Shown here: positions 1-61,079 of the stretch, in pieces
How the letters are laid out: the number at the start of each line of letters is the position of its first letter
Numbering within the stretch: position 1 is the stretch's first letter
Source: Trichoderma breve
Lineage: Eukaryota > Ascomycota > Sordariomycetes > Hypocreales > Hypocreaceae
Reading direction: 5' to 3'
NCBI RefSeq assembly: GCF_028502605.1
Contig: NW_026611594.1
Coordinates: forward strand, 1,319,501 to 1,383,500
Length of the DNA stretch: 64,000 nt
The notes under the pieces: model-generated
Database searches by the model: none
The model's input: the letters and a program-made list of their open reading frames with translations, nothing else
What the model was told of the DNA's origin: nothing
Position numbers and translations under genes: made by a program

Positions 1-1
1 T

Positions 2-166
2 CAGATCGCAAAGGGCCTCTCCAACTACCTCGAACATAGAAGGAAGAAATTATCCACAGGCTCATACTACCATGCCGTCCAAAAGCTTTGGTGCGTTCTG
101 TCCAGCACATTCGAATCACTTACTAACAGAGCAATAGCAACCACCGGAACCTTGCTGATGGGTTAG
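2..166 (+). CDS. possible 3' end of a gene entering from the left
   Basis: An open frame of 54 codons runs from the window edge to a TAG at 164-166. Its start (QIAKGLSNYLEHRRKK) looks like an amphipathic helix, of the kind that ends peptidyl-carrier or condensation domains of NRPSs. In Aspergillus fumigatus the ETP synthetase gene gliP lies next to gliC, so an NRPS ending just before a P450 would fit. This is inference: a 54-codon open frame can occur by chance, and no carrier-domain serine motif is visible. Sequence left of the window would settle it. Confidence 0.25.
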   Translation, partial: QIAKGLSNYLEHRRKKLSTGSYYHAVQKLWCVLSSTFESLTNRAIATTGTLLMG

Positions 167-340
167 GATTCCATACCTATATATCGTGGGCGAGCGAAAA
201 TAATCAATGGAATGTAACAGCCTACTTTAACCCAGAGATCTATGCTAGCTACCGATCTGGGTAGTACAATAATTAAATGCTTCATTGAACATACTGATGC
301 TTTTCCAACTCTTGTTATTTCTCCTGTGAATATTAGGTTG

Positions 341-1122: not shown

Positions 1123-2975
1123 ATGGAGTACATCAGTATGAGCTACTTAGCACTTCTGTGTTGTGTTTTTTTAGTTTGCCATATTTACCGGCAAAAGGAG
1201 CCAATTATCCATTTTATAGTATATCTCTCATCCGCATTCCTCTCATCATCTACTTTTCGGTAGCTCATTTTATACGTAGCTCTCTACCGTCGTTTATCCA
1301 ATTCGGGACATCCAGGGTCGCCTAATCTCTGGGCCACTATGGAAGTTTATAGACGGGCAGGGTCTTGACAAATTCTTGCGTGGTCACGAGGTTAGCCAAG
1401 ATTGGCGACGACATGGCCCAACTTATCGAATCTGGTCGGGGTTTGTCCCAGAAATGTGGGTAAAGGCGCCCAGGCCGGTGATTCTGAGAAGACTTAGGTA
1501 GACTAACTATGGAGTTTTAGTGTCCTCACCAGACCAGAAGACGTCAAGTCTTTCTATGTCGACTCTGCAGTCCACACCAAATGCACATCAAGCAATGGCG
1601 GATGGCTATTTCACCAGCTCCTTGGAAACTGTATGGGCCTCATCAACGGTGAAAGATGGAAGAGAACACGCCTTGAGTTCAATAGCTATTTCATCAATCG
1701 CGCAATCGCAGAATTTTCTCCCCAGATGGAACAAGACGCCGCAAAATATACGCAGAATCTTACAGAGGGAAGTGGCCACGGCGTCGATTTGATACATGCA
1801 GGCAACATAAGTCGATTTCCTTTCATGACTACGGCGGAGCACATCTACGGACCTATGACGGAGAAAGAAAAAGAGAACCTCTGGTTGCTAGGCCAAAGGA
1901 GTCTCAGATTGATGGGTAAAGTACTGTCTGGTGGTGTTTACAGGTTCAAGGTCTCTCAATTCTTAAGACCAGGGACACACCAAAACTTGAAGAAATTCGA
2001 CGATGAATGGACCGCTTTCAACGAGCAAGTATACAATGCACGGAAAGGCCGCGGCCAAGAGCCTCCTTTTGTACACATTTGGGAGAGCTTGATAAAGGGG
2101 AAGATTTCCAAGCAAGAGGTTTGCCACTGCAAATCCGCAGGCTCTGCAGGATTATGTCTAACCTGTCGTTTTCCATTTAGTTGATACAAACCATGAGCGA
2201 GATCCTTTTTGCGAATTTAGACGTATCAACCCACGTTCTTGGTTGGTTGATTATCTTTGTTGCCCAGAATACCGCGTTACAAGAAGAGCTTCGTAGGGAA
2301 ATAACTAATCAATCTAGCGATATGGTGGAATTTCTGCGCAAAAAGGACTCTCTACTACACTTTTGTTATCTAGAATCTCTACGCCTTCGGCCATTTACAG
2401 GTAAAATGTCATCCCCAGTTACTATCATAATAAAGCAGAAATCGCTAACAAGTAAACAGTTTTTACTATTCCCGAAAGTTCTCCAACGGATAAGGTTGTG
2501 GGAGGATATAGGATTCCAAAAAACGTAAATTTGCCTAATCTCTCCCTGAGTAATCTTTCTAACAGATAAATGAGCAGACAAGTGTTGTTGTGGACACATT
2601 AGCAATTAATCATAATCCTGAATTCTGGGGCGATGATAGCAGAGATTTCAACCCGTATCGCTTCCAGAATCTATCAACCAAAGAGGTAGGAAAGATAATG
2701 CCATTTAAGCCTGCTTATGCATTGTAGCATAGCTAATAAGTTATAAGCTTCGCTATAATCTGTTTACCTTTGGATTCGGGTCACGGAAGTGTCTTGGTCA
2801 GCATTTTGCCGACGTTATGATAAAGCAGTTTCTCTGTAAGCTGCTAGAAGGTTATAAATTAACGTTACCAGAAATGGAGATCCGAAAAGGAACGGAGGAG
2901 AAGTCTAGTATGGATACATGGGTGCCTATTTCAGATTTACAAGTCGCTCTGTGTCCAATTGATTCACTGTTATGA
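1123..2975 (+). CDS. cytochrome P450 of an ETP-type locus (GliC/GliF-like)
   Basis: Microsomal haem monooxygenase, probably an oxidation step on the diketopiperazine scaffold. Seven exons keep frame: 1123-1218, 1280-1455, 1521-2118, 2181-2400, 2460-2524, 2578-2685 and 2748-2975, giving 496 residues, normal for a P450. The N-terminus is a hydrophobic anchor (YLALLCCVFLVCHIY). The helix-K ExxR is ESLRLRP, and the haem-binding loop is FGFGSRKCLG with its cysteine ligand. The ATG at 1123 is chosen because it precedes the anchor. The stop TGA at 2973-2975 lies in the first bases of repeat copy C, so insertion may have set the present C-terminus. The neighbours are GliG/N/A/J/K/Z-like genes, which supports the pathway assignment. 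Position after a putative NRPS end favours GliC over GliF, but I cannot decide from sequence alone. Confidence 0.85.
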
Positions 2976-3098
2976 CTTAGTCCTTCGTAACAGCTTGGTT
3001 CTATATAAATAGGTAGCTCTACTATAATAATCACTACAATTGAGATTATTAGCCTAGTCTTTTGCCCTGTTTGGCATAACGGTTAGTGGACCGAAACA
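2969..3098 (-). repeat. 130-bp terminal-inverted-repeat element, copy C (reverse)
   Basis: Read on the minus strand from 3098 it starts TGTTTCG and ends CATAACA. It matches copy A along its length, including CAGGGCAAAAGACTAGGCTA and a terminal GGACTAAGTCATAACA against GGACCAGATCGTAACA. It lies opposite to copy A, so the P450 gene sits between inverted copies. Its left end overlaps the last seven bases of the P450 coding sequence. Confidence 0.7.
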
Positions 3099-3195
3099 TT
3101 TCTTAATTTAATATTATTAATACAAATTTACCAAGGTTATATAAGAGATTTCATGACGACTTTAATACTTAATATACTAAACTATTACACATCGA

Positions 3196-3227
3196 TTTTT
3201 TTTTTAAAAAAAAAAAAAAAAAAAAAA
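3196..3227 (+). repeat. T10-A22 homopolymer block
   Basis: Ten T followed by twenty-two A in the convergent gap between the P450 and the GST gene. It could be a retroposed poly(A) remnant or a simple repeat. The rest of 3099-3298 is AT-rich and without a gene. Confidence 0.85.
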
Positions 3228-3298
3228 CACGTGCGTGGCAATAGGAAGTCTTGATTTTAAATTCTTGCTCAATAACTAGCTAACATGGGAATGGACCT

Positions 3299-4121
3299 TT
3301 AATTTGTGTTGTCGAGAGCCGCAAGCTCTGACTCAGACAGCCCAAATCGTGTAACTCTATGTATTGCTTTTGCAACCGCTGGTAATGCACTTACACGCTC
3401 ACTCCATGCTTTCAGATGTGGCCATTCGTTAAAATCCAACTCAGCCGACTTGGCAATTGCCTCGTTTGCGAGGGGTAAGATGGCAAAATCGGCAATAGTT
3501 ACCCTGTCAGGTAAGGCCACGAAAATTTGACCAGGCTCCTTTAACCGCGTCTCCAAGAAGTTGTACTCGGTCCTGATGTATTTAAGTAGAACAGAAAGGG
3601 ACTCGCCGATGTCCACGTCTTTAGGCATTTTCATCAGGAGCCATATCTTGCCAGTGGCTCCTAGTCCAGCTGTGTAGGACATCAGCCAATTCATAATTAC
3701 TGTTTTTTCGTGCAAGTTTTTGCCTCGATAGAGGCCTTCCAGGTCGTATTTCTCTGCGAGATAGACCAAGCAAGCGGAAGAGTCGAAGATGTTCAATCGG
3801 CGGGCTTCGCCACTGACCGGGTCGACTTCCGTATCTTCCATGGCAGGGACCATTTTGTAGGGATTGACAGCATGAAACCATGTTTCTTTGCTAGTTGATT
3901 CGATGAGATGAATGGCATGAGGAATCCCCAAAGCTTCAATCAACATCAATGGTTTAACCGAATTGGCTGTGGATGTCGGGCTTGCTGGCGTGTGTATTAG
4001 TGCTGGTGCTTATCTGGACAATGAATAAATAGGTTATCCCACCTTTCTTAACATACAGCACCAGCTTATCCTCTGGGATAGCCGTGGGGCGCACAGAGAG
4101 ATCTTGCTGCATTGAATCCAT
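3299..4121 (-). CDS. gliG-like: glutathione S-transferase, GliG-like
   Basis: In ETP pathways GliG adds glutathione to the oxidised diketopiperazine, supplying the sulphur of the disulphide bridge. Two exons, 4121-4043 and 3984-3299, with a 58-nt intron, give 254 residues, as expected for a fungal GST. Residues 1-105 form the thioredoxin-like N-domain, with YVKK and the loop SPTSTANSVKPLMLIEALG across the splice. The C-terminal helical domain has TIADFAILPLANEA, where the conserved aspartate is the usual N-capping residue. It ends convergently with the P450 and is divergent from the GliN-like gene, sharing a 295-bp promoter. Other fungal GSTs look similar; the specific call rests on the neighbours. 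Confidence 0.85.
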
Positions 4122-4416
4122 TTCGATAGTCTAGAAAGCTACAGGAAGAAAGAATGCAGAAAAAAAAAATGGGAGGATGACCTTTGCAAATGATACTTGA
4201 TGGTGTATTCTAATCTATGGTGGGAAAACGTATTGATTAGTCCGGCGAGTATACAACATAGTGCCCGAAGACTCCACACCGCCGTTACCCGGGAGTGCTA
4301 GCTATAGTACATACTTCAGACGCCCGTTTCGAACATCATTATTAATTCAAGCACCTGGACCGTGTTCTTCTTTGATCATAGGTATCAAGTGTTGTCTCAT
4401 CTCTCTTAAAAAAAAA
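4122..4416. promoter_or_regulatory. divergent promoter, GST / methyltransferase
   Basis: 295 bp between two start codons facing away from each other, so it should drive both genes. It holds GC-rich patches with CCG triplets (TCCGGCG near 4240, CCGCCG near 4280), possible contacts for a Zn2Cys6 factor. An A-tract directly precedes the methyltransferase ATG. I do not see the TCGG-N3-CCGA motif reported for A. fumigatus GliZ. Confidence 0.6.
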
Positions 4417-5331
4417 ATGGCTGAAAGTACGATAGAGGATACATACCGTGGCCCTCGTCATCAAGGCGAGTATGATCGCTTACGTATCCAGCATGAGCTT
4501 GCCAAGACTGCAATGCAAGGAAAGCTGCTATATTCCCCAGTAGATTTGGCGCAACCCAATCTCCGCGTTCTCGACTCAGCAACTGGCGAGGGAACCTGGC
4601 TCATTGATCTTGCCCAATCCGTACCAGCTTCGGCAAGCTTGTTCGGCGCTGATATAGCCCCTCAACATTTTATGTCCCAAGACCAACGACCCCCCAACGT
4701 GCACCTCTCTGGTCATTCGATTTTTGACCCCTGGCCGGCTGAATACCAGGGCAGTTTTGACGTGGTCCATCAACGCTTTGTCTTAACAGTGGGTTCTGAT
4801 GAGACTGCTCAGGAAGCCGTGAAACTGCTTTTTGCTTGCGTCAAGCCTGGCGGTTTCATTGAACTTCATGAGGGGGATATGTTATCAATTCAGGAGGGGC
4901 CGGACCACGTAGCATTCATGAAGTTCCGCGACATTATGGTCAACGCATGGAATTCTATTGGGCATCAGCCAAGTCCAGGATCATTTCTAGTACAGTGGCT
5001 GAAGGCTGCGGGTGCAATAAATATCCAACAAGATCGCCAAACCATCAAAGTAGGAGCTGCAGCCGATGACAAAGAGCTCGGAGAGAAAGCAATGGCTGTA
5101 CTGCTTCACCTTTTGGATGGAATGAAGAAGATGTTGAGTGGTGAGTTAAATGGATCTTTATGCTTACCTGGATGTTCACTAAAAATTCACAAATATATTG
5201 TAGATAAACCAGGGCAGCCAACGAGTAGCGAGTTCGATGATCTTCGGAGTGAGCTAGAGCATGAACTCCGCACTGTCGGCAACGTGTACTACTATCATCT
5301 TGCGTGGGCACAGAAGGCCACTATTGGTTGA
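4417..5331 (+). CDS. gliN-like: SAM-dependent methyltransferase, GliN-like
   Basis: Class I (Rossmann) methyltransferase of the LaeA/GliN type; GliN methylates the amide nitrogen late in gliotoxin assembly. Exons 4417-5140 and 5204-5331 give 283 residues. Motif I is VLDSATGEGTWLIDLA, a following acidic turn is GADIAPQ, and the post-core segment FDVVHQRFVL then CVKPGGFIELHEGD is typical. The open frame continues upstream to 4261 only from a GTG; the ATG at 4417 after an A-tract fits the domain start. The 63-nt intron (5141-5203) is a multiple of three and has no in-frame stop, so an unspliced form would code for 21 extra residues. GliN rather than another LaeA-like enzyme is inferred from context. 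Confidence 0.8.
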   Translation: MAESTIEDTYRGPRHQGEYDRLRIQHELAKTAMQGKLLYSPVDLAQPNLRVLDSATGEGTWLIDLAQSVPASASLFGADIAPQHFMSQDQRPPNVHLSGHSIFDPWPAEYQGSFDVVHQRFVLTVGSDETAQEAVKLLFACVKPGGFIELHEGDMLSIQEGPDHVAFMKFRDIMVNAWNSIGHQPSPGSFLVQWLKAAGAINIQQDRQTIKVGAAADDKELGEKAMAVLLHLLDGMKKMLSGELNGSLCLPGCSLKIHKYIVDKPGQPTSSEFDDLRSELEHELRTVGNVYYYHLAWAQKATIG

Positions 5332-6023
5332 TGGAATCGAATGTCGATGAAATTCGGAGTGAGGCATAAAAAAGTCCATGTCTTTTCTGAATGAGGTACG
5401 AGCAAAGTCTGCGGCACAGAGAAGCTCAGTAACCCAACTAAGTCAGAACTACGGTCAAGATTTGCATCCCAAGCTTGTGATAGGAATATATAGTAATTAT
5501 CATATCTTGAAATAATTCCTCGAGTCTAGCGATGAAACACTGCCAGAGCCATCCTTCACGGATATTCAGGTCACATACATGATAAACTGAATATTGGGTT
5601 TACCTCCCTGTCAAGTTTTCAAGTTGCATTCGCCCCCATGCTTGATAGTTCTATTCCCTCACCAGGATTTACAGGTTATATACAGCGACTAACACTGAAT
5701 CATCTATTTGAATTTGTCATGTCTTGATGTTGTTTTACTAATTAGATAGCCGCCAACTCAATCCAGCCCCTGTGCTCTTGCAAGTAACCGGCTGAAGTTT
5801 TGTCCCACGTGCTTATTTAAGTGTATTAAACTAAATGTGGTAGTCAAAATTCCATTCTCCTCAAGTCACAAAATTAACACTTCTGAGGACATGGAGTTAG
5901 TTGCAAGTCATCATCATCTCTCCATCCATGCCCCTCCTCACACTGCCCTCCCTTGGCCGCCAGTCTTAACTTGAGAAATCATCCAGGACAGGGCAGTCTA
6001 GATCCCCGAGGTTTCGCCATCAC
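5332..6023. other. convergent intergenic region
   Basis: Both flanking genes end here. I see no coding frame, RNA gene or repeat; it must contain the two 3' untranslated regions and terminators. Confidence 0.6.
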
Positions 6024-7744
6024 TCATGCCTTTTCAACAATTGCCAGGTCGTTGTTGGGCTCTGTTGTTTCCTTGGGCAGGGCCTCATCTGTTGCTTTAG
6101 GCCAATAAAACGCTGTAATCAGCACAGCTCCCGCTCCCAGAACACCAGTAAGTAGCCAAAATGCATTGCGGTATCCATCCATAGACACTACTACCATGTC
6201 CCCGGCAGCTTCTCTTTGCGAATTCATCAAAGCATTGGCCCCTGCTAGGAGTACACTGGCGCCGACCTGGTATGCTGTATTAAATAACGCAGCAGCAACG
6301 GCATGACTGCCGGATTCAACGTGGCGAAGCAAAATACTCTGAGCCGGCACCATTGCAAGCGGGCTGCCACAAACAAACAAAATCGCGCACACAATCGAAT
6401 ACCAGTATCCCCCCCCGTGGTACGTTCCACCGGCTCGTTCTGGTGTTGCGAATGCCCAAGATACAGCGCCACAGGCAGTTATTACGAGGCCGAGAACCAG
6501 AGTCCCCTTTTCTCCGATCCACTTGACCATTGGCGCGGACAGAGCCCCGCTGGCTATCGCAGAGAAAGCACCTGGCTATGGTAAAACAAAAGTTAGCAGG
6601 TACGTTGGAGCAGTGGTTTCGGCGTGAAGGCAGATGAGAATGGAACATTTACCAAGAAATATACAGCAGTAAGGACGGGCGTGTAACCCAATAGGTTCAC
6701 ACACAGTTGCGTAACAATAAAGAACCAGGCGCTAAAGCTGCCACCGAAGGCAAATATGGCAAACATCATGAGCGCAAACGGGCCCGACCTCCAGACATAG
6801 CGAGGGATAGCTGGGTTGGGTACTTTGGTCTCGATGAAGAACAGCGAGATGCAAATGCATGCGCCGAGGATCACGCCGACGAGGACGGGGGCCGAGTCCC
6901 AGCCAGCTCTTGCGCCATCATTGACGCCGTATACCAACAGCGCAACTCCAATGGTAAACACAACAGCACCGAGGATGTCGATGGATAGATCGCTAGTTCT
7001 CGCGAACTTTGGTAGGAATAAACACGCGAAAATAAGGGATAACGCCGTCAAAATAATACAAACCCAAAAGATGGACCTCCACCCAACTGAAGAAGCTGTC
7101 GATAGGTTAGCACTTGTAGGCTAGCAAAATCGGGCCAGAACAAGGGTCCATTACAAGAGAGGAGAGAACCAACGACAGTACCAACCGTGGATCCCAGAGG
7201 CGCACACGCTGTGTAGATGGCCAATGCTGTGTTGCGTGCCTCTCCGTCAGGAAACGTCCTGCTGATGATGGCAAGTCCGTTTGGAGCCTGAGTTGGGAAG
7301 GTTAGCGCAGACAAACTACAGGTAGTAACCCGTTCAAACACAACTACTTACGGTTAAACCTGCCCCAATACCTGAAATGGCACGACCAGCGAGCAGGGTG
7401 CCTTTATTCGTTGCAGCGGCGTTGATGATGTTTGATATGGTGAGAATTGCTGTACCTGTGATGAAAGTCTTTTCTAGGCCTAGCCATTGGCCTACTTGGC
7501 CCCCAATCAAGAGTAACGACGCAAACGTGATACTATATACAACTAAAACCCAATTGACATCTTCAGAAGTGAAGTCAAGGGCTCGTTGAATGTCCGGCAG
7601 CCCGAAGAGAACTGCAGATAGCTGGAATAGATCTAAGAAATTCACCAGGGTCGTGGTGAGAAGGATCAGGTTCCGATCGGTTTTCTCATTGAATCGTCTC
7701 CCGAAATGATAGGGAGGGGTGCATGACGGCTGAAGAGAAGGCAT
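6024..7744 (-). CDS. gliA-like: MFS drug:H+ antiporter (DHA2), GliA-like exporter
   Basis: Plasma-membrane exporter expected to expel the pathway product and protect the producer. Four exons: 7744-7352, from 7287, then two larger ones ending at TAA near 6024. The 64-nt first intron has GTAAGT and CTAAC...CAG signals. Hydrophobic segments occur throughout, e.g. WVLVVYSITFASLLLIGGQV, ILGAVVFTIGVALLVYGV, MMFAIFAFGGSFSAWFFIV and GYRNAFWLLTGVLGAGAVLI, consistent with a 14-helix DHA2 protein. The motif GRAISGIGAGLT marks the conserved helix 4-5 region. Length is about 500 residues, slightly short for DHA2 but without an obvious gap. It ends against the GliN-like gene and starts divergently from the dipeptidase. 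Confidence 0.85.
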
Positions 7745-8153
7745 TGGAGATGGTCTGCCTTCGGCGTCAAAATTTTCTATCAGTACTGAGGCGGAGGGGC
7801 AAATGGTTTCTGTAAGAACATAGTGTTCGATTACATTTAGTGGTTGTAATCAGTAACTCATCGTCTTTTGTACCGACCTTCTCCTGTAGTAGACCCGGCA
7901 AGTTCCCGGAGCCTTTTCGGGGACTATGTTGCCCCTTTACCAACAAGAGATGTAGCAATTGGCGGCCCAGCCTGGCCTACCTTGGCTCCGCGTTTTTTAT
8001 GTCCCCTTATGAGTGAGTGTCCGGTTTAGGTATATCTAGGGTACTTTCAGCCTCGGTCTGTGTGGGGAGATAGCCCAGATTTGGCAGTTGAAGGACCACG
8101 ATACCCAGATAACCAATGAAAAGGGTTACGGGAGTTTCACGATAATCAATGAC
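7745..8153. promoter_or_regulatory. divergent promoter, exporter / dipeptidase
   Basis: About 410 bp shared by two genes transcribed outward. At 7905-7921 there is CCCG and CGGG in inverted arrangement (CCG-N9-CGG), a plausible Zn2Cys6 dimer site. TCCGG recurs near 8020. Unproven as a GliZ site. Confidence 0.5.
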
Positions 8154-9704
8154 ATGCCACATCCTGCTACCACCATGCCTTTGTCTGAGTCAAATGCGTC
8201 TAGGATGGACGAGGCATTGGAGGTGCTGGGGTCAGTCCCACTAATCGGTAAGCCGTCGCTGCGACATTGATCTGAGTAATGAAATACAGCGCGCTGACTC
8301 TCTGGTGTGGTGTAGATGGGCATAATGATTGGCCCCATCTCATTCGTGGATTTTATGACAACCAGCTAGATGAGCGCTTTGATCCGAACAAGAACCTCGT
8401 CGGCCATGTCGATCTGAAGCGGCTACTTCAAGGGAAGTCTGGGGGCGCCTTTTGGAGCGTATACGTCGACTGGTGGGTGCTAAAAGTGTCTATAATCCTA
8501 TGGTTCTTGTTACATAAGTCTCGTATGAACCGCTAATGCGTGACGGAAACTCTTAGCCCAGAGTCAGATGACTTCAGCGACAATGCTGCGTATTTCGAGA
8601 TAATCCGAGACACGATGCAACAAATAGATCTCGTTCATCGGTTGGTACGACTGTACAGAAAGCACACGGGACTGGTTAAAAGAGCATCCGACATTATGGC
8701 CTTGCATCGCGAAGGCAGGTTTGCTAGCCTTATTGGGGTCGAAGGTTTGCACCAAATTGGTAATAGTCCAAGCATTTTACGACTCTACCATAAGCTAGGT
8801 GTCCGGTATGTGACGCTGGCACACAACAAGAACAATCTATATGCCGACAGTGCTGTAGGTGATCAGATTTATCAAGCATTATTGCGGATGCAGTTTTTCG
8901 ACTAACCAGCCAGACTGCAACGACTCCAGCACACGATGGACTCTCTGTCTATGGGAGGGACATGGTTCGAGAAATGAATAGAATTGGAATGTGAGACCAC
9001 CCATCTATCTGTCTATTGTAACTTCAGGATGGTCTCTTAATTTTTTGATCCAAAGAATTATCGATCTCTCTCATACTAGCGAGGCCGTAATGCGGCAGAC
9101 CCTTGACATATCAGCAGCCCCGGTTATCTTTTCTCACTCGTCAATGTTCGTATAGCTATAGCCTGGCGTTTGATCTATAACATCTCTGTGCTGACCGGAG
9201 AAACTCAGAGAATCAATAGTTCCACACGTTCGAAATGTACCCGACTCAATCCTAGAGAAGCTCCAGCAAAATAATGGTGTGATTATGATCTCCTTCATAC
9301 CATCTCTAACGACTGTGGATAGTGTAAGAGCGACACTTGATCACATAGTTGATCACATCATACACGTCGCTGAGTTGATCGGCTATGACCACATTGGCCT
9401 CGGATCTGATTTTGATGGCATGTTCAGCGCTGTTAAGGGCATCGATGATGTCTCTCAATACCCAGCGCTGGTCTGCAAATTACTTGAGCGAGGAGTTGAT
9501 CGGCTAAATGTGCAAAAGATCCTTGGGCTCAATATTATCCGGGTGTTAGAGCAAGTCGAAACCGTATCTGCATCTTGCCAAGACAAGCTACCAGTCATGG
9601 TCGAGAGCATTAAACAGCTATGGAATGATGAGTTCAGGGCCACAGTCAGACAACACTACCCCGAAGCGGAACATGATATACCAAGGACGGAATTCACCAA
9701 GTAG
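8154..9704 (+). CDS. gliJ-like: membrane dipeptidase family M19, GliJ-like
   Basis: Zinc dipeptidase; in ETP synthesis GliJ trims the cysteinyl-glycine part after gamma-glutamyl removal. Six exons keep frame across GT-AG introns. All expected metal and catalytic positions are visible: HND in IDGHNDW, the glutamate in GVEGLH, histidines in IDLSHTSEA and IFSHSS, and the aspartate in GSDFDG. Length is about 415 residues, normal for M19. The frame extends upstream only through a TTG, so the first ATG, at 8154, is taken as start. It ends 32 bp before the end of the convergent GliK-like gene. No secretion signal is visible, unlike animal renal dipeptidase and like fungal ETP enzymes. Confidence 0.88.
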
Positions 9705-9736
9705 ATCGATTGAGAAGTTTTTCTTGTCTCTAATAT

Positions 9737-10582
9737 TTACCTGCAAACCCCGTCGCCTCTACCCCAGAGTATACTATGTAGATAGTCATGATGAAACCAC
9801 ATTGTCCATAAAAGACAGTCAAATGATTTTAGAAACCAACGAGGAACCTCTCCATCATCACCTTTCAACCTGTGAACACATACCTCAATCCAGCGTGCCA
9901 CTCTTTGCCATATACTATCAAAAATCTTCTTACCGAGCCGGAATCTGAGGGAAGATGTCGGTTCAAAGGTCGGTTGGGAGACCATCCTTTCTTGATACTC
10001 TATTGGGAGAGATTTTTCATGGGCACCGCGGATCAACAAACCCTTTGAATTGTCAGTTCCTGCAGCTCGATGATGGAATATTATCAAGCCAGGCATAACC
10101 ATGAAGTACGTACCATGTATCGTTGAGAAGGTAGTCTTTCCCAGCTCCTGTCGACTTGATGCCTGGCCACTAGTGTCGTAACTGATATCGATGAGCCGTC
10201 GCGTTGTAGAGTGGCCGTAAGTGTTGCTGTATTGTATGCAATCCCTCCGCTAAATATTGTCAATGAGATAACTCCTCTACTCTGCATCACCCCCATGCTA
10301 CTGCCCGGAGAACAAATACCCTTCAGTCAAGATCACACGGTGCATATCCTCTGACGTTAGTTGATATGCGACACCGTATACTGGGATTTCCTGCTCCTCC
10401 CTCAAACGGATCCCTCCCATAGCTGGGTCGGTATAGGGCACACCCATTACATTAAAGCATAGGGTATGCGTGTTGATGGCTGCAATTTCATACTTTCGGG
10501 GCTGAATCTTCCGTCGCTTGACAAAAACTTCCTCCAGCATATTGGAGCCATAAGCAAAATACCAATGAATATCGTCGGACAT
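9737..10582 (-). CDS. gliK-like: gamma-glutamylcyclotransferase-like protein, GliK-like
   Basis: GliK removes the gamma-glutamyl group from the glutathione adduct. Exons 10582-10320, 10249-10110 and 10059-9737 all keep phase and give 241 residues, near the family length. The GGCT signature FAYGSNM starts at residue 9. The core follows (VYGVAYQLTSEDMHRVILTEG, then GGIAYNT over the first splice), and the C-terminal part GLLIRGAHEKSLPIEYQERM is the helix bundle expected in GliK proteins. The tail has a hydrophobic, tryptophan-rich stretch (WTMWFHH). It is divergent from the regulator gene. A housekeeping cyclotransferase would be shorter and lack this tail, so the pathway call is good. Confidence 0.87.
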
Positions 10583-11409
10583 CCTGGTAGGTCTGAATAC
10601 TGAAACTGGAAAGAGGCAATAAATTCAGGTGCATTCTCAGCGAGCTTCGTGTAAAGTCGGATAGTGTGAATTAATTAATCCTCGAGGAGATAAATAAGGA
10701 GCACTTTGACCAATCGGCCTAGGTCTACAATTGTACGTGTATACGAGCCGAGTTAGTGCGTCGGTATCAACCCAAGTCGCATTGATTTGTCTGGTACCTA
10801 TGTCTGGTACCTGATACTTGATGGAAGGTCCCTATATTTACTAGTATCCAACAAACTCATATCCCTTCCATACCAAACAGGGTAAGGCCTAAGGTTTAAA
10901 ACAGCCACACATTTCACTCAGGCCTTAATGGCGTCCGAGAACCGACAGTGGGTTCACAATCTCTCATTTCCAATCGTTGCGACTACGTGATCTTGAAGGT
11001 GTCATGGACTGTTGATTAAGCACTCAGATGCAGCGAGCATTAATATTTGATTGGCCCTTGGCACCACCTACTGCTGCATGTAAGCCGTACTAGTACACTG
11101 CTGCATGTAAGCCGTATACTGCTAGTGGTAAGATGTCCAAACTGCGCTTGGTCCTTAATATTACCCGGCAGTATTTCTCTCACTTTCCAACCTTGATGGT
11201 GCGGTTATCAATGTACGCCCCAACCTTGATAGTATCAATATCCCTACCTAGATACTCCTACGTAGTACATCCTTGGACGACGAAACGTGACTGAACTACG
11301 CAAACCTTCGTGCTTTAATTATAGTGGCCGATCCCAAGATTGCGCCATAATGCTCAACTTTTTAGTTATCAACTAGGACGTTAGCCATTGGCTGAAAGCC
11401 GCTGTTGTC
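10583..11409. promoter_or_regulatory. divergent promoter, GliK-like / Zn2Cys6 regulator
   Basis: 827 bp, the longest promoter in the block, upstream of the presumed pathway regulator. It holds CCG-N11-CGG at 10748-10764, CCGAGAACCGA near 10936-10946 and a 20-bp direct repeat at 11070-11116. These are candidate sites for the regulator or for a broader factor; none is proven. Confidence 0.55.
11070..11116 (+). repeat. 20-bp direct repeat in the regulator promoter
   Basis: Two exact copies, 11070-11089 and 11097-11116, with a 27-bp period. Each contains CTGCTGCATG and AAGCCGTA. It could be a slippage duplication or a paired operator. Confidence 0.85.
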
Positions 11410-12949
11410 ATGCCTCGAGACCAAGCAGTAACCCCAGAGTTTTTAGAAAACGACAGACAACCCAAACTTCGGAGTGCCTGCGATGGCTGCCATGCGGCAA
11501 AGATCCGTTGCACGGGAGACACACCTTGTGCTCGCTGCGCAAGAGAGTGAGGAACATCATCAGCACAATAAAGCAGACCCTGCATTAGGAAACGGGGGGG
11601 GGAGGCGGAAGCTAATTGAACTTCACGCAGGAATCTACGATGCCACTACAGCTTCAAGGCAAAAATTGGGAAACCAAAAGGTAGCCTGAACAAAAAGACA
11701 ATAGAGCGGATGCAGCAGATGGCAAAGCTGGGGGGAAATAACCAAAGAACGCCGCCATCAGAATCCACAGTTGCTCGTTCCGAGACCCTAGCTACAATAC
11801 AATGTGCGGCGAACAATTCATTGTTATCACCCGTTAGTGGTGAAAGCACGGCTGCCGATGTTATTTTATTGCCTCAAAATAGTCATGAGATCCAGGATAC
11901 AATAACCTCTAAGTCACTTACCCTTGATCACTCTGAGAGTCTTATATATGAGGGTGACGATCTCGATGGGATGGAAAATTGGCATCCGATGGTAACTGCC
12001 GAGAGTATCGAAAAGGTACGTAAATCGCCACTATTGCAGCATAACTAGTAGAGAAAGTTCAACACTGACTACAGTCAGGAACCCATCCAGACAACTGCAA
12101 ACTCACATGGTTCGTGCCCGCCCATGTTCCACGAAGATCTTCGGAGCCTCTGATAGAATATATGATATTGAGGCCACAGCTAACCATTCCCAAGACCTAG
12201 ATCCAAATAGCAGTGGGACAACGAATGAAATACCAATCGTTTATGAAGACAAATCGAGCTTCTGGCGCAATACCACCTTTTCACAAATATCTGGTGCGAT
12301 TGACACATCTTTCTCACAACTTTCCTCGTATTCGCCAAAATCAACGCCATCTGGACAGATCGATCGGCAATGTAGCGGCCATGGTTCGATACTGTCGCCG
12401 TATGCCGGGCCATCCCAACCCTACACGCAGCCCTCATCTCCCTGCACCTGTTTTGCTATGTTAAGCAGTCGTCTTTGCGAACTACAAGCCTTATCAACAG
12501 CCACAGAACAAACGCGGGCAATCGATTCGTTACTGGTCCAATCACAGTCCACGATTCCTTATATCAAAACGCTCTTCAAGTGTCATAACTGCATGCGGGA
12601 CACGCAAGGACTCCTCATGGCCACAATGGTTTTATCCCGTTTGCTGACCTGGACACGACTTTCTCTGGTAGATCAAGAGATTGGCCAGATTTCTGCACAG
12701 GTACGCCTGGGAAACTTCACCGGCTCTAGAGAATTGGGTATTACGGTGACGCGGCTGCTTCTCCGAACTCACTGGTTGGATCTCAAGAAGACTGTAGAGC
12801 GTTTCCAAGACAGGGTTGATCAGATTGGATACGACAAAGCGGATAGAAGTTATTTGGCTACACAGGCTGAGAACTTCAGGCTGGAATTAAAGCAGTTTTC
12901 CGAGAAAGTGCCAGACGTATCACGACCTAGCTTCCTTATGGCCGTATAA
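11410..12949 (+). CDS. gliZ-like: Zn2Cys6 transcription factor in the GliZ position
   Basis: Likely pathway-specific activator of the ETP genes. Exons 11410-11546, 11631-12019 and 12075-12949 join in frame to 466 residues. The binuclear zinc cluster is [11 protein letters not shown] then TGDTPCARC and a final cysteine in the next exon, spacing C-x2-C-x6-C-x5-C-x2-C-x6-C. A basic linker [17 protein letters not shown] follows, as in AflR/GliZ-type regulators. The C-terminal half has a cysteine-rich [11 protein letters not shown] segment and a helical region matching the AflR-like effector domain. The intron inside the zinc cluster is common in this class. A nine-G run in the first intron could cause sequencing error but is outside coding sequence. 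Confidence 0.85.
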
Positions 12950-14423: not shown

Positions 14424-15309
14424 ATGAGCGCTGCAACAAAGGAAACGTTGGCGGAGATCAACGCTAAACACTTCGAGTAGGCCTTTCAGCCCTACATCCA
14501 GTAGCTGTCTTTTCGCCAAGCGCTTCTGAATGATATCATTAATTGCTAATGTTTCGCGTTACCTCTGCAGCAAGGTTAGCCCCGGCGATTGGCAGCAATG
14601 GGTCCGCGACCTCCACGGACAAGTCGTCGAATTTCTCATATCACCCGAATTTCCAGCTTGGCTTGGGCTACCAAGCCAAGGTACATGCCGGATGCTTGAC
14701 TACGCGTGTGGAGACGGAGTCATCTCTAAGGGGCTTAAGCGGCATTGTTCTTCGGTTGTCGGTGTCGACGTCTCTGGTAGCATGCTGGACAAGTACCGGA
14801 AGACAGCCGCCGACCTAGGCTGTAGCACTGACGAGATGGTCGGTGTACGCGGCGACCTGCTAGCCGATAACGTACAGCCAACAGACCCGCCGCTGCCTGA
14901 GGAAATGTTGCACAATTTTGACCTCGTCGTCATTAGTATGGCCTTGCACCATTTTGAAAATCCCGAGCGTGCCTTGCAGCGGCTTGCAATGCGTCTGAAG
15001 GTAGATGGCGTGCTTATGGTTATAGACTGGACCCCTCTTGATCTCAGTACACCAGCCCAGTGCCGGTATGAAGAGGAATTGAGAGAGCGTGGCGAGAGCT
15101 TGGAGTCAGTTATGGAGAGAGTAAAGGGGCATAGTGCGCGACACACCGTGAGCAGACCTGACGGCTTCACGGAGGCGGATATGAAGGGCCTGTTTAAGCA
15201 GGCTGGATGCGGAGAAGTTAGATGGAAGCTGGCGGAACAGTTAAGCCCCGTTCCTGTGGCTGGTGCCAAAGGCCAGTTGTTCTGGGCTCGAGCGCAGAAG
15301 TTGGCGTAA
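14424..15309 (+). CDS. class I SAM-dependent methyltransferase
   Basis: Small-molecule methyltransferase with a Methyltransf_11/12-type fold; substrate unknown. Exons 14424-14476 and 14571-15309, with a 94-nt intron, give 263 residues. SAM-binding motif I is MLDYACGDGVISKGL, motif II VVGVDVSGSMLDKY, and motif IV FDLVVISMALHHFENP. It is not like GliM by size, and it lacks the motifs I would expect for the thiomethyltransferase TmtA/GtmA. The GC-rich coding sequence contrasts with AT-rich flanks. Convergent with the SDR gene. It might decorate an ETP or serve separately. Confidence 0.8.
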
Positions 15310-43652: not shown

Positions 43653-46600
43653 CTAGTCAAAAACATCAATCGCATATCGTTCGCTGGTGATACGTTCAAA
43701 CCACTCCATTGCTTCCTTCTTTCCCATTGGTACCCCTTTCGTTTGAAGTTTATTTGACAAGATGCGAATCAAAGTTTCTCTGACCCCATCTGCCATTACG
43801 TTAGAGCCACAAACATAGATTTTAGCATTGCTGTCCCACAGCTGGGTGACATTCTGTCGTTCATGCCAGATGCGGTCTTGTACATATTTGCATCCGTGAG
43901 AGGCTTCGGGTTGACGACTATAGGATCGGAAAACAGTAACAACGCCAGCGGCTTCCCACGTGCGAAACTCATCATAATATAAATCGTCGTCCAAAGGGTT
44001 TCGGCAGCCATAAAAGAGAACTGCGGGTGCAAGCGAGCGTCCGCTTTTCAGAATGATGGAACGCTCTTCGATGAAAGCCCGAAATGGAGCAATACCGGTA
44101 CCAGTGGCGATGCAAATTATTGGCGTTTTGCTCGAATCAGCTGGCATACGGAACCCACCTTGACCAGCGCGGATAGAGACCTGGAGTCGATCTCCCGGTG
44201 CAAGCGACGACAAATACGACGATGTAACACCAATATATCGGCCGTTCCCAGACAATGCAGGGCTATCAATGACCGAATACGTTAAGGTGGCGGTTGTAGG
44301 ATCTGAAAGTGGAGAGGATGAAATTGAACTGTACAATTTATTTAGGTTAGAAAGAATTGAAGAATATTTAACAGTGGAAGTTTGCAAGGTTGATTCTTAC
44401 TATTTTCGTACTCTCATAGGTGGTAGAAGGAGGAGGAAGTGGTTGAAAGGTATTAAAAGGTCTGAAAACTGCTCGGCAATGTCAAGTATAGAGACGCGTT
44501 TGAGCCTAACCTCCGTCTCATAGGCATCGGTAGCTAGGTGATAAAGCTGCTGTTTCGACTTCCCATCCTCAGCAAGAAGATAGAGACTAAGAACATTCTA
44601 AGTTGAAATGTCAGATGAAGAGCTCAGAATATTATCTTTTTCAGTATTGTACAAACCCGTTTAGTTGCTGGTTGTCCAAGCTCCACGTAGGATGTCAATA
44701 GACTCGATATAGGGATACTAGTATCCGTTGGGAGGGTGGTTGGTTCTGAAGCCGTGATGACAACATGGGAGTCCCATGCCAAGTTGAAGCGCCGTATAGC
44801 TCTCAATACTGTTTCTTTTGGGTTATGAGGAAGCACGGCGAGGTAATCGCCTGTTGCGTAAGTTATATCGCTGGGTAGTCTGACTTCGAGATGCCTCTTT
44901 TTAGAAAGTGATTTGCTGGTTACCAAAGTGCGGGCAGCCACCACAAACCCCTCTCTAGTATCCTGGCGGAGAGTTACAGCCCTGGGAGTCGAAAAGGACA
45001 CCGAAAGACCGGAAATGGGTGACTTATCGTTCTCTGTACATCCGCCAAACTGCTTTTCGATTGCGGGCCAGAGAAGTTCATCCTCCCAGCATTCAAAGTC
45101 GCTGAACATATCTCTATCCTTGGCATTAGTGGTCCCCATTGAAACAATGCGACGAGCACCGAGCTTCTCTAGAGTAGAATCTACTAGTCGAGGAATGCGA
45201 TGAAAAGATTTGACCCAATCGGAGTGACCTAAAACATATCAGCCAGATAGCATAATAATGGTTCAATACTGAAGCATACCGCAGCCATAAACGGCGTAAG
45301 CAACGTTGTCTAATTTTTCTCCGTCCATATTTTGGATCCAGTCGACAAAATGGCCGGCATTATGTGGTGGTTGCCCCTCATATGAAGATGTGATGATGAC
45401 GATTGGCCCGTCTGTAGGGAGTGCTTCTCTACCAGCATCCAATGTGTCCGCTGTAGCCTTGAAGCCATGAGAAGAAGCATCATTTGCCAGTCGCTGAGCC
45501 ATGAATTCACATGTTCCAGAATCCGAACCGTAGAGTATTGTCAATTTTGTGCCACCACTTACTTTCGCGACACTATTCAATGGACTTGCCGATAAATTAG
45601 AACGCGATTGTTGATCCGAAATTGGTAATGGGCCTGGCGTCTTCCCACTAAAAGCTCCAGCAAGCCGTGCTTCCAATTGGAAAGGCATAAGTCCGCCTCG
45701 TGGTATAGCTCGAATTTTGAAGTCTTTTGGCTTTATAGTCAGAGTTTCTTGTACGATTAACGAATAAGACGGGTTGTCCATAACGAAGTTGAAGTTTTGC
45801 ATAAGCATAGCGAGTGCTAGAATCATCTCTTGCCAGGCAAAAGGCCTCCCAATGCAGCTTCGTAGTCCAGTACCAAAGGGACTCCAACAGTGTGGAAACT
45901 CTTTCATTAGGCGATTGAAGTTATCATCCATCATTCTCTCAGGCACAAACTCGTTGGCGGTATCCCCGTAGACTTTCGGATCAAGGTGGGATTTTGCCAG
46001 CAGGCAGACGAGTTGTTCGCCAGCTTTGACCCGGTACTTACCTCCAACGGTTTCATCTTTGGTTGCCTCTCTGGCAAATGCCGAGATTGGTGCATTAAAT
46101 CGCAAAGTCTCTCGAATGACCTGAGTTAGAAACACGTATTAGTGCCCAGTAGACCGAGAGCTTCGAAATGCGTAAATATGACTGATACACACCGCGGATA
46201 AGTACTTTAGCTTCCCAACATGATCTATCATGATCGGCCCACTCCCCACGACGTGATCAATCTCAGCCTGTACCTTGCGGTAAACGTCGGGGTTCGTTAC
46301 TAATTGATACATAGTGAACGAAAGCGTGGCAGCGGTGGTTTCATGGCCTGCAACAAGAAACGTGATCAAATTGTCAATGATGCTCTGCTCTGTCATTTTG
46401 CGGCCAGTTTTAGGGTCCACGCCGTTGATCATGGCGTTTAAAAGATCTTTAGGATCACCAGTGGCATCTGGGGCTTTTTGCCTAGCTGCTAAGACTTGCC
46501 CAGCAGTCGTTCGCAGGATGGCGATATTGGACTCGAATTTGCGATCTGCTGACTTATGAAGGATGGACGGTAATACGCGCATGTTCCTGTCTCCGGCGGC

Positions 46601-47325
46601 CTTTAGTACAGCATACATTGCTTTAATAAACGGATGCATGTCGTCTCGGTAATAGGAGTTAAATCGAAACCCCATGGAGCAGAGCGCAACAGTATCGAGG
46701 GTGAGACGTGTGAAGTCTTCTCCAACGGAAATCGGTGTAGATGAACCATAGCGCGCCCATTTCAGGGTAAGTTGGCTTGACACCTCATGCATATTATCGA
46801 ACATTCCTCGGATCGACATTGGCCCAAAAGCAGACATCAACACGCGGTGCGCAATTCCCCAATTTTCTTCTTCTTCTCCTGAAGACTGTGTGCTGTTAGT
46901 ACATTGCTGCTAATTGCTTATCACCTTTGGGACCGCCTACCGTAAAAAGTCCATCATGTACAACGGCCCTGAGTTCCTGGAGTGGAAAAGTCAGAAGCAG
47001 AAACAATTAGATTGTGTAAAGCATTTTACCTCAAGATCACCTTGAATAGACTTTTTGAATCGGCTATCATCGCAGGCTTCGTTGACAAATTCGTATGATG
47101 AAAGAATCACCAGTTTGGTGCCACCGATGGATAACTTGTATATTGGCCCTGCAAAAGTTAGGGAATTTGGCCTTTGTATGCAGGTTACAGTATCCTTTGC
47201 GTACCGTATTTATCTGCAAGATGAAGAAGGGATCCAAGCGGGTATTCTAGATTAATATCTGGGATGTTTCCCAGCAGCGGAATTGTCCGCGGTTGTGGGA
47301 TGTTTGAGTTCTTGCTCGTGGTCAT
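43653..47325 (-). CDS. CYP505-type cytochrome P450-reductase fusion
   Basis: Self-sufficient monooxygenase; CYP505 members hydroxylate fatty acids near the methyl end or oxidise cluster intermediates. The start ATG at 47325 gives MTTSKNSNIPQPRTIPLLGN, with no membrane anchor, as expected for soluble fusions. P450 part: oxygen-binding AGHETTAATLSF, ExxR in RETLRF, haem loop FGTGLRSCIGRPFAWQE. Reductase part: flavodoxin ILYGSDSGTCEFMAQ, FAD motif RKYSISSSP across a splice, and NADPH-binding IATGTGIAPFRAFIEER and YGCRNPLDDDLYY; ends YAIDVFD. At least seven introns, all joins readable in frame, about 1,060 residues. Convergent with the MDR gene. Confidence 0.9.
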
Positions 47326-57729: not shown

Positions 57730-58699
57730 CTTTAAATTACCGAGCATTGACATTAGGTTGCAAATATTTGAGAAGGAAGAGGTCACAAGATATATCTAGG
57801 GCTCATATGCCCATGCCTTTTGCTCTATCACATAAACTGGAGCTGTTACGCTAATATCGCGATGCATTGCCGAAGCCGTATTAGCGCCCATGGAGAAGGC
57901 AAACATAGGTGCCTACGGAGTGGAGTTATTTCTAAACTACCTTGTCACGACCCAGCTCTTATGGTCGTAACAAAGGGCCTACAGGGTAGGTACTTTCGGA
58001 TTAACGTCGGCCTGCGCAACTAATTAGGAAGCGGTCGACAGAAATCAACGTCGATTCCAATTAACGCAAGGACAAATTAATTAAAATTATAATCAATTCT
58101 ACTCAACTCCAGAATACATAACTAAATATATAAGTTTACTTTATATTACTTATTAAAATACTTAAATAGCTAGTTATTATTAACGTAATAGCATTTAAAT
58201 TAAACACTTAAATACTTCTTTTTATAAGTTAGTAATAAGATTACCCGTCTACCGACTTAATCGCTCCGCTAATATAAACTATAAAACTATTCTAAGGTTT
58301 ATCCCTTAGAAATAGCTAACCTATACTACCCTATAAGCACTAGTTTATTATATAATAATAACTCTTATTTAAACAGTTACCTTAGACCTACAGGTAATAA
58401 AATACTAAGGACTTAATAATTTATAAGCTTTAAAGTCTTAAATAATAATACTAATTACAAAAGCAAAGCTTAAAGTAATTATAATAATAGTAATACTAAA
58501 ATATAAGATAATCTTAAAGAAACTACTAAAGACGTTAAAATAGCCCCTTAACCACTAGCTAATACGTAAAAAGCTAAATAATACTTCTTAGTACTTAAAG
58601 AACTTATAAACTAATTATACTAAATAATTACTACTTAAGCAGCTACTATAATAATACTTTAAAAATAAATACTAGTAGTAAACCCTGTGGTTAACCTAG

Positions 58700-59560
58700 C
58701 CCCTATAGTATAATAAAAAGAACCCGGAGAAATCGTTAAGCTAGCACTACTAAACAAGTTTAAAGGAGATCCTAAACAAATCTAAAAGTTTTTCACCAAT
58801 ATAAGAAACTACTTTAGCTATTTTCTAACTACAATAGCTAACAATAAAATAAAAATTTAAACAGTAGGAAGTCATTTAGCCAAAACTACTAAAAATTAGT
58901 TTAAGCCCTACCTTAGAGACTTTAAATAAACCAAAGATCCTAAAAAACAATACACCATTAACCTATTTAACAACTATAATACATTTAAAAAATAACTTAA
59001 AAAACTATATAGGAAAATCAATAAGTCTAAGAAAGCTAAAAATACGCTTTTTCAAATTAAGTAAAAAAAACCCTACGTAAAATACACTACTGCTTTTATA
59101 TATCTAGCTACCAGAACCAACCTAAATAATAAAGTACAACAAATACTTTACTACTAAAAACTTAACCTAAATATTAAAAACAAACTCTCTAAAAACGAAA
59201 AGCCTAACACTTTTAATAAACTTACAGAAAAAGCTACTTACATTAATAAACAATAATTCTAATAATACTAAAAACATAAGTAAGAAGGAAACCTATAAAA
59301 GATAAACTAAAAGTACTTTTACTTTAGTAATAGCGCTAACTAAGGAAAAAAAAAAAACCTTATAATATATAATAATAAAAAGCTAAGACTAATAAACCTT
59401 AGTATTATTAAGGTATAACGTAAGAATATTAAATATTATAATTATAGTAAAAAAGGATACATAAAGAAATATTACCAAGCCCCTAAAAAAGACAGTAATA
59501 AAAAGTTCACACCTATCCTAGAACCTAAGGAAAACTAAATTATTAATACTATATAACCTT
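58700..59560 (+). pseudogene. gag remnant with mutated zinc knuckle
   Basis: Frame pieces such as LLNKFKGDPKQI near 58745 fit gag. Near 59434-59480 the sequence reads KYYNYSKKGYIKKYY, which aligns to a CxxCxxxGHxxxxC knuckle with every Cys now Tyr and His now Tyr. Stops are frequent. Confidence 0.7.
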
Positions 59561-61079
59561 TAGTAAAGTATAAGCTATTATACTTTTTAATATATTATAA
59601 TAATAAGTACTAAACCTACCTTAGTAATAAATAAAGATTAGGATAATACCTTAAAGAACTAAAAAATACCTTAAATATACTTAAGGAAGTTACCTAAGAG
59701 GAAATAATAAAAATTAAATAATAATACGCTAAACTTATAAAACTTAAAAAGTAAGTAGAAAAATATAAAAGAAAAGGTAACTTATATAATACCTTTAATA
59801 CTTTCTTAAAAGCTTATTAAATACTTAACAAAATCCCTATTATAGTAACATATTACCTATAAAATAATAAAATTATACAGTAAGAAAATACTTTAAACCC
59901 CTAGTATAACTTTAATAAAAAAGAAAAAGTACTTTAAGAATAAAAGCAAAAGGAAATTAAACAATAAAATTAAAATACCCTAATATAGAACTATAATATA
60001 AAATATATTAACCTTAACATTAGTAAACTCTGTCTAAATTATAAATTATAAGAACTACAGGGACCTAAATATCCCTGCGGATAAAAACCTTTAGATAAAG
60101 AAGATAATAAAAGCAAAAATAAAATAATTTATAATAAAAGCAGAAGAATCTATAAATACAGCTTTTATAGAATTAATAAAAAATATTAATAATAGATTAA
60201 TACTCTCTTAAATATATACCCTTTTATAAAATACAAAACCTAAGGACTACTTATAAATAAACTATATAAAGACTATAAATCCTATATATTATTTAACAAC
60301 TAATATTATATATACAATCTTAAAAAAAATAAAAACTATAATAATCTCTTAAATACTACGCCACTAGTAAGCCCTATACCTACAGAATTCCTTAAATAAT
60401 AGGGAAAAATTCTAAAAATTAATATAACCAAGGCCTACAATAAAATTCAGGTATTAAAATAAAAATTCCAACAATATCTTAATAATAAAAATACCTTATA
60501 CCCTAAACCAAAAGTATAAAAAACAGCACTATACTACATCAACAATATTTTTCTCAGGAACTAATATAACAAAGCTAATATTACCAACTACCAACTACTG
60601 CTATATAAATAATATACCCTTTACAAACTTAGGGAATAACATAAAATCTATAAACCTCCGAACTATAAATAAAACAAGTTCACGCTTTACAATAAGGATA
60701 ATTATATAAAATATAAAATATAACACCGCATACTTATATATATTATAAAAAACCTAGCTAAGCAAGGTTTTAATTTTAAAAAACACACTAGCGGATATAG
60801 TATTAACACTAAGACATTAAAAATTAGTTAAAAAAACCTTCGGAAGTATTATAAGCTTACTAATAAGTATATCCCTAGACTTAAATATACCTAGTATAAA
60901 TACTATAATATCTAAACTTAGGAACTAAGCTAAATTACCTTAGAATTAAATAATATTAAGGCTAACCTTAATAATAAGGAATAAAACAGCAATAACCCCT
61001 AAAATAATAATAACTACTACGACGATGTTAATAATACAACCTATTATAATCTAAATACTATCTTAGGAAAAAAGAAACT

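Follow-up and report, generated by a model that had tools for sequence, protein, structure and literature searches.

A complete, apparently intact ETP gene cluster in Trichoderma breve, probably for a product of the thiosilvatin series

Genes of the locus

The window, by which we mean the whole stretch of 64,000 nucleotides of Trichoderma breve DNA that was analysed, carries seven genes (C, G, N, A, J, K and Z) at positions 1123-12949, preceded at its left edge by the 3' end of D. A first-pass annotation had described the seven as adjacent ETP-type genes that keep their reading frames, and all were indeed open and spliceable, with 21 introns between them. In window coordinates, the features are:

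1..264, plus strand: 3' end of D, DMATS-family prenyltransferase (Pfam/NCBIfam; PF11991); exons here 1-90, 138-264
1123..2975, plus strand: C, GliC/SirC/TcpC-type cytochrome P450, 496 aa; exons 1123-1218, 1280-1455, 1521-2118, 2181-2400, 2460-2524, 2578-2685, 2748-2975
3299..4121, minus strand: G, GliG-type glutathione S-transferase, 254 aa; exons 4121-4043, 3984-3299; GliG is the clear best solved match
4417..5331, plus strand: N, GliN/TcpN-like methyltransferase, 283 aa, called from domain and position; exons 4417-5140, 5204-5331
6024..7744, minus strand: A, MFS transporter, 498 aa; exons 7744-7352, 7287-7170, 7086-6653, 6575-6024
8154..9704, plus strand: J, GliJ-type M19 dipeptidase, 403 aa; exons 8154-8247, 8316-8472, 8557-8854, 8914-8990, 9056-9145, 9209-9704; GliJ is the clear best solved match
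9737..10582, minus strand: K, GliK-type gamma-glutamyl cyclotransferase-like protein, 234 aa; exons 10582-10320, 10249-10114, 10042-9737
11410..12949, plus strand: Z, Zn2Cys6 regulator, 440 aa; exons 11410-11546, 11631-12015, 12079-12109 (the least certain), 12180-12949

The likeness of N to GliN and TcpN is one of domain and position. Catalytic residues and motifs of M19, P450, GGCT and Zn2Cys6 proteins served as standards. For N, I and P the output of a simple codon-model gene finder was kept, and for C, G, A, J, K, Z, T, D and M2 it was corrected with hand-set splice sites.

The cluster continues to the left of the window. The bimodular NRPS P was found 3.9-10.1 kb outside, within the 30 kb in which an NRPS had been expected, together with a GliT-like oxidase (T), a GliI-like lyase (I) and the remainder of D, which is placed between I and C and starts at C8:1318467 or earlier, depending on its first exon (C8 is the contig of the cluster). 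D is the sole PF11991 match found in the genome (C8:1318518-1319570). GliT is the best solved match of T, and I matches ACC-synthase-type PLP enzymes. The cluster reads (M2?)-T-P-I-D-C-G-N-A-J-K-Z at C8:1306303-1332449 and shows the ETP hallmark of G, J, I, C and T in linkage with a bimodular NRPS. M2 is a second GliN-like gene, assigned to the cluster, if it belongs there, by adjacency alone. The ETP sulphur chemistry proposed in the first-pass annotation is supported by this linkage and by GliG, GliJ and GliT as best solved matches of G, J and T. The "accessory gene block" is more than accessory: taken together with the 13 kb on the left, it forms a complete cluster.

Promoters of the cluster showed no shared motif: CGG-N(0-8)-CCG occurred 4 times against a shuffle mean of 4.4, TCGGN3CCGA was not observed, and the top 6-, 7- and 8-mers stayed within the shuffle maxima. 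A methyltransferase at window 14530-15309 was considered as a GtmA-type S-methyltransferase and rejected, its best solved match being a generic methyltransferase (7.1e-05) and GtmA being absent from the names of the 13 listed chains. The AT-rich right end of the window was likewise rejected as a mitochondrial insert, with zero frames of 100 aa under code 4 beyond 57.8 kb. The window gave no match in Rfam.

Relatives of the NRPS and of the cluster

A motif scan of the T. breve NRPS revealed two T motifs and two HHxxxD motifs, and in its T. virens orthologue Pfam marks two stretches each of A and C and one of T. Translation of P probably begins 18 bases upstream of the modelled start, as in the T. 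virens model. GliP requires a third T domain. In P, a third, C-terminal T domain is absent by motif, and the approximately 990 bp past the stop carry no GGxS in the three plus frames, where no third T exon was found. The two A-domain pockets, compared at nine positions each that we take to be those of the PheA numbering, are identical to those of the T. virens and P. roqueforti homologues (9/9 and 9/9) and nearly so to those of the P. brevicompactum homologue (8/9 and 9/9). Both differ from the pockets of the Metarhizium homologue, which was taken as clapurine-type because the clapurine cluster has been reported at 100% for M. brunneum.

The tcp (clapurine) cluster of Claviceps purpurea (BGC0001365), whose reported end-products after expression of sirC in that fungus are prenylated cyclo(Tyr-Gly) sulphides, has the full set of eleven genes: T, P, I, D, C, G, N, A, J, K and Z. 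By locus tag, the six genes T-P-I-D-C-G are collinear in both and Z stands at the far end in both, while A, J, K and N are rearranged. As in the tcp-type gene set, D and K are present, the GliM type is missing from C8, and no second P450 of the GliF type was recognised in the frames of the block. The tcp cluster differs in that its D and C fall in another clade, in the A-domain pockets as judged from Metarhizium and in the possible second N-methyltransferase of T. breve. Penicillium, Aspergillus and Talaromyces (P. roqueforti, P. brevicompactum, P. expansum) have tcp-like loci whose P, D and C are among the closest listed outside Trichoderma, with P and D identities of 50-58%, shared pocket residues and, in several, the same P-x-D-C spacing of locus tags. 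The tags of P and D differ by two in five of the six genomes in which both were seen and by three in P. taxi; C adjoins D in 4/4 genomes. The literature searched contained no paper fixing the product of these loci; for P. expansum, "clapurines 72" are mentioned (PMC11766614).

Trees were built for D and C. Both proteins fall outside the Claviceps clade, in clades with the listed thiosilvatin producers T. virens, P. roqueforti, P. brevicompactum and P. crustosum. Identity of D with the C. purpurea protein is 43%, and with those of P. brevicompactum and P. roqueforti it is 57-58%. Among the matches listed (120 of 169 for D, 120 of 2701 for P, 96 for C), at least five of the 13 producer species named in a review were found and eight were not seen. 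The homologues came from T. virens (P, C), P. roqueforti (P, D), P. brevicompactum (P, D) and P. crustosum (C), all of them on the producer list of the review; for these producer species, compound and genome are from different strains. The agreement has its exceptions. D of Fusarium chlamydosporum, a listed producer, falls in the clapurine clade; D and C of Tolypocladium, a listed producer genus, are distant and outside both clades among the matches listed; and C of P. camemberti lies outside as well. P. expansum, P. solitum, Niveomyces and Paramyrothecium carry the cluster yet are missing from the producer list.

Proposed pathway and rival readings

From the seven genes the product cannot be told, as had been stated, a verdict that became too cautious once the left side was read. 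Because the DMATS gene lies between I and C and C8 has no PF00891 match, the cluster appears to belong to the prenylated (clapurine/thiosilvatin) branch. A prenylated sulphur-bridged dipeptide of this kind, and not gliotoxin, is the most likely product. Our best reading is an ETP of O-prenyl-tyrosine and glycine: the cluster, complete and apparently intact with the seven-gene block as its right half, would serve for a product of the thiosilvatin series (probability about 0.63), either dithiosilvatin or, if an enzyme encoded outside the cluster adds S-methyl groups, bis(methylthio)silvatin.

The analysis directly establishes which genes are present and linked, that their frames are open, how they relate to known families and how far the pockets agree with those of producer-species homologues. 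We infer the product and every chemical step of the following scheme. D would transfer dimethylallyl onto the tyrosine oxygen before or after loading, and P would join the aromatic residue to glycine and release a diketopiperazine. C would oxidise both alpha carbons, G would add two glutathiones, K, J and I would strip these down to the dithiol, and T would close the disulphide. N, perhaps with M2, would methylate the ring nitrogens; A and Z are the predicted exporter and activator. Clapurine is described as lacking the two N-methyls that silvatin carries, and the presence of two GliN-like genes in T. breve, where C. purpurea has one, would suit these two groups.

The shared set of eleven genes could instead specify clapurines proper, in which the prenyl-Tyr-Gly disulphide bears no N-methyl groups, as is the case in Claviceps. 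One N gene is certain and M2 is uncertain, which would fit. We nevertheless regard this reading as unlikely, given the greater identity of D to the Penicillium proteins than to that of C. purpurea, the position of D and C outside the Claviceps clade, the pocket differences from Metarhizium and the report of T. virens as a source of N-methylated silvatins. Somewhat less probable still is another prenylated ETP, with tyrosine and serine or another second residue as in phomamide and sirodesmin. The sir cluster of Leptosphaeria maculans shares the ETP core and a SirD-type prenyltransferase, and the specificity of A2 is not readable with certainty from its residues. However, K is missing from sir, no extra sirodesmin-type P450s, acetyltransferase or other side-chain genes were recognised by eye in the frames listed beside the cluster, and the pockets match homologues from species with Tyr-Gly compounds.

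That the cluster is silent or decayed and yields no product is improbable. Related clusters are often silent, and the C. purpurea P450 is reported to be dysfunctional without an obvious sequence lesion, but all T. breve models are open and few conserved columns are changed: 0/86 in C (columns conserved among 19 homologues), 2/87 in D and 1/340 in P. Least probable is a gliotoxin cluster, as gli names would have it. C, G, N, A, J, K, Z, P, I and T all have gli counterparts by type in A. fumigatus, G, J and T with GliG, GliJ and GliT as best solved matches. Yet the GliM-type family PF00891 has none of its 15 genome matches on C8, a second P450 was not recognised in the frames of the block (read by eye; profile scoring covered 92 of 186 candidates), and a prenyltransferase is present. 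Moreover, T. breve has a separate gli-type cluster on another contig (C3:1582-1616 kb). Its approximately 34 kb, with an ABC transporter and an O-methyltransferase and without DMATS, are the likely counterpart of the T. harzianum/T. reesei-type gli cluster of the same genus (PMC7080844), with which the present cluster has the P, C, G, I, J, K, N and T types in common.

The cluster within Trichoderma

A survey of 12 Trichoderma species, T. virens among them, reported dimethylallyltryptophan synthase as absent, and a later one reported a DMATS-type cluster in T. harzianum M10. T. breve is now added to the Trichoderma with a DMATS-family gene, for which an ETP role is suggested. Since none of the D matches listed (120 of 169) is named T. 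virens and the survey is without the synthase, the T. virens copy of the cluster may lack D or have it unannotated.

The first thiosilvatin dates from 1981, when it was isolated, and the open-access literature searched held no published gene cluster for thiosilvatins, only guesses at their biosynthesis genes; PMC4938161 itself remarks that clapurines resemble dithiosilvatin. The locus would provide a defined set of genes for a series of ETPs whose biosynthesis a 2019 review predicted only by analogy with gliotoxin. We tentatively, and with more doubt than conviction, extend this to a thiosilvatin cluster type, which would link the 1981 compound family to genes in Trichoderma, Penicillium and Sarocladium. 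NRPSs of this type would form the diketopiperazine with no C-terminal T domain like that of GliP, and the two N-methylations would be split between two GliN-like enzymes. Some T. virens genes filed under gliotoxin outside the gli cluster ("gliZ" TRIVIDRAFT_191964, a second gliT TRIVIDRAFT_31354 and perhaps gliA, where it is assigned to scaffold 4) would belong to this second ETP cluster instead. Surveys of "gli" genes in Trichoderma can mix two ETP clusters in one genome, which matters for claims that gliotoxin clusters of biocontrol strains are incomplete or that their regulators are missing. T. virens P0122 is unlikely to be TvGliP, because it lies on an 88-kb contig and the T. virens gli scaffold is approximately 30 kb. 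The scaffold given for T. virens gliA is conflicting.

Extension and borders of the gene block

The first-pass annotation had proposed a block of seven genes for sulfur-bridged, gliotoxin/sirodesmin-like (ETP) metabolites at window positions 1123-12949; these encode a P450 (C), a GliG-type GST (G), a GliN/TcpN-like methyltransferase (N), an MFS transporter (A), a GliJ-type dipeptidase (J), a GliK-type cyclotransferase (K) and a Zn2Cys6 regulator (Z). The block was confirmed with the same first and last bases. Models were built with a simple codon-model gene finder, after which splice sites were set by hand; all 21 introns are GT..AG and none of the seven models contains an internal stop. The Pfam families match expectation. 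Among solved structures, J matched GliJ (1.4e-108; next other match 5.6e-77), G matched GliG (7.4e-57; next other match 4.8e-13) and K weakly matched a gamma-glutamyl cyclotransferase (5.5e-06). Key residues are kept: FGFGSRKCLG (heme motif) and ESLR in the P450; HxD, Glu, Asp and two His in J; YFAYGSNM in K; and CX2CX6CX5CX2CX6C in Z.

In the T. breve genome (38.5 Mb, nine contigs), the NRPS that had been expected to the left of the window on contig C8 (NW_026611594.1) is present within a gene run ordered M2-T-P-I-D (C8:1306303-1319764).

Genes flanking the block
C8:1306303-1307351, +, M2, second GliN-like methyltransferase, 26.5% identical to N, adjoins T
C8:1307952-1308977, +, T, GliT-like, with GliT as best solved match (4.5e-79)
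C8:1309438-1315596, +, P, bimodular NRPS, 2032 aa
C8:1316582-1317976, -, I, GliI-like ACC-synthase-type PLP enzyme
ends at window position 264, +, D, DMATS family prenyltransferase, first exon of model not fixed
window 14530-15309, single-exon methyltransferase, 259 aa

The left border is M2, which may be a twelfth cluster gene, or T. To the right of Z, the first frame of at least 230 aa is the methyltransferase at 14530, which does not look ETP-like and has no GtmA among its solved matches; domain matches on that side also point to a thioesterase-like protein and a short-chain dehydrogenase, and Z therefore looks like the right border. For D (325 aa) and the NRPS (1828 aa), the public T. breve models fall short of ours, and the NRPS model also of that in T. 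virens (2038 aa); they are probably annotation errors.

Cluster type and a second ETP cluster

The clapurine (tcp) cluster of Claviceps purpurea consists, according to Table 1 of PMC4938161, of exactly Z, N, J, K, A, G, C, D, I, P and T. These eleven genes are common to both fungi; T-P-I-D-C-G is collinear, whereas A, J, K and N are shuffled. K and D form the telling pair because, among the three clusters compared in that paper, gliotoxin is the only one besides tcp with a K homologue, and sirodesmin the only one besides tcp with a D homologue. D is the sole PF11991 match in the T. breve genome, and a D query returns only D itself. None of the 15 genome-wide matches to PF00891 (GliM type) lies on C8. 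Judged by gene content, this is a complete cluster of the tcp type, predicted to make a prenylated ETP. The earlier assignment to ETP-type sulfur chemistry is supported, with GliG, GliJ and GliT as best solved matches of G, J and T, and sharpened.

Queries with G, J, K, I, N and T each also matched contig C3 at 1582-1616 kb, the next-best place for G and T; with J, K, I and N it is equalled or outscored by other loci. This stretch holds a PF00891 gene and a P450; reading by eye adds an ABC transporter, a Zn2Cys6 protein and an NRPS, the last outside the 78 matches of the genome search.

Second ETP cluster
C3:1582304-1616159, T, O-methyltransferase, ABC transporter, Zn2Cys6, G, J, K, NRPS, C, I and N, several recognised by eye

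It fits the description in PMC7080844 of the T. harzianum and T. reesei gliotoxin (gli) cluster (33-35 kb, with an ABC transporter), so that there are two ETP clusters in T. breve.

Relatives, substrate pockets and probable product

Among the matches listed, P has Trichoderma orthologues in T. virens Gv29-8 (87% over full length), T. afarasin, T. camerunense and two Trichoderma not identified to species; next come those in Niveomyces, Paramyrothecium and Scytalidium and in many Penicillium, Aspergillus and Talaromyces. The spread is similar for D and C. Locus tags of P and D are two apart in five of the six genomes with both tags (N7523, N7486, N7477, UA08 and Scytalidium B7463, where D and C form a fused model) and three apart in P. 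taxi (N7495). C adjoins D in 4/4 genomes (N7486, N7477, UA08, NLU13). With contigs matched by length among the rows transcribed, P and D share 14 contigs (T. breve included), D and C 13 (one a fused protein) and P and C 15.

In the D tree (38 rows), T. breve shares an 18-member clade (97/88) with Penicillium, Aspergillus, Talaromyces, Sarocladium, Niveomyces and Paramyrothecium, and Claviceps and Fusarium chlamydosporum fall in a separate clade of nine (100/98). In the C tree (33 rows), its clade (100/99) has 16 members and includes T. virens, Sarocladium, Paramyrothecium and Eurotiales, with Claviceps, Metarhizium and Epichloe in a separate clade of six (99/97). For D and C alike, Tolypocladium lies outside both clades, as does P. 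camemberti for C. Since the Hypocreales are divided between the clades, there are hints of transfer or old duplication.

Nine pocket positions per A domain were placed by motifs, with PheA numbering, in T. breve and 41 of the 120 NRPS matches listed. The T. breve codes are DAGTILCIC (first A domain) and DVASLASIG (second). Within the T. breve/Penicillium group of 23 rows, T. breve included, the second is the same in 21, and the first is complete and identical in 14, the other nine having gaps or one to two changes; Metarhizium majus has DAGTILAIS and DVASYIFIA. A thiosilvatin review names 13 source species of these prenylated sulfur-bridged dipeptides, five of which appear among the matches listed. 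Four fall in the T. breve group (T. virens, P. roqueforti, P. brevicompactum and P. crustosum) and one, F. chlamydosporum, in the other. Silvatins consist of Tyr/Phe and Gly, the founder bearing an O-prenyl, two N-methyls and two S-methyls, and clapurines resemble dithiosilvatin without N-methylation, according to their discoverers (PMC4938161). From pocket codes, source species, silvatin composition and this likeness, the product is most likely thiosilvatins. N, perhaps also M2, would act as N-methyltransferase, and S-methylation would be performed by an enzyme encoded outside the cluster; other Trichoderma are reported to carry gtmA genes (PMC7080844). An orphan compound series would thereby be tied to genes.

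By motif, the NRPS at C8:1309438-1315596 is without the C-terminal third T domain expected of GliP-type diketopiperazine synthetases. No third T motif was seen in the 30 best NRPS rows (29 with two T motifs, one with one), and a C-terminal third T domain occurs in four of the 16 rows ranked after them, some rows being partial. If cyclisation by GliP requires the third T domain, the T. breve NRPS group must cyclise another way.

T. virens genes and the right end of the window

The T. virens orthologue of P450 C is TRIVIDRAFT_191958; TRIVIDRAFT_191964, named putative gliZ, is six steps away, as Z is from C in T. breve. The second gliT candidate and TvgliA lie on T. virens scaffold 4 according to PMC7080844, whereas PMC9030297 has its gliA candidate on scaffold 34. 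That these genes belong to a cluster like that of T. breve is a lead only, because model numbers may depart from gene order. Against it count the lack of any D row named T. virens among the matches listed and a survey of 12 Trichoderma species that reports no DMATS. A novel DMAT cluster has been reported from T. harzianum M10 and may be the one described here for T. breve. The T. breve cluster may help to tidy gene assignments in T. virens gliotoxin genetics.

Window positions 58000-64000 are AT-rich (22-23% GC) and strongly strand-biased (A > T, C > G), with raised TpA/ApT (1.3-2.1), consistent with a RIP-degraded repeat; they hold no 100-aa frame under code 4. A further P450 gene lies at 45713-46927 (C8:1365213-1366427), 33 kb from the cluster.
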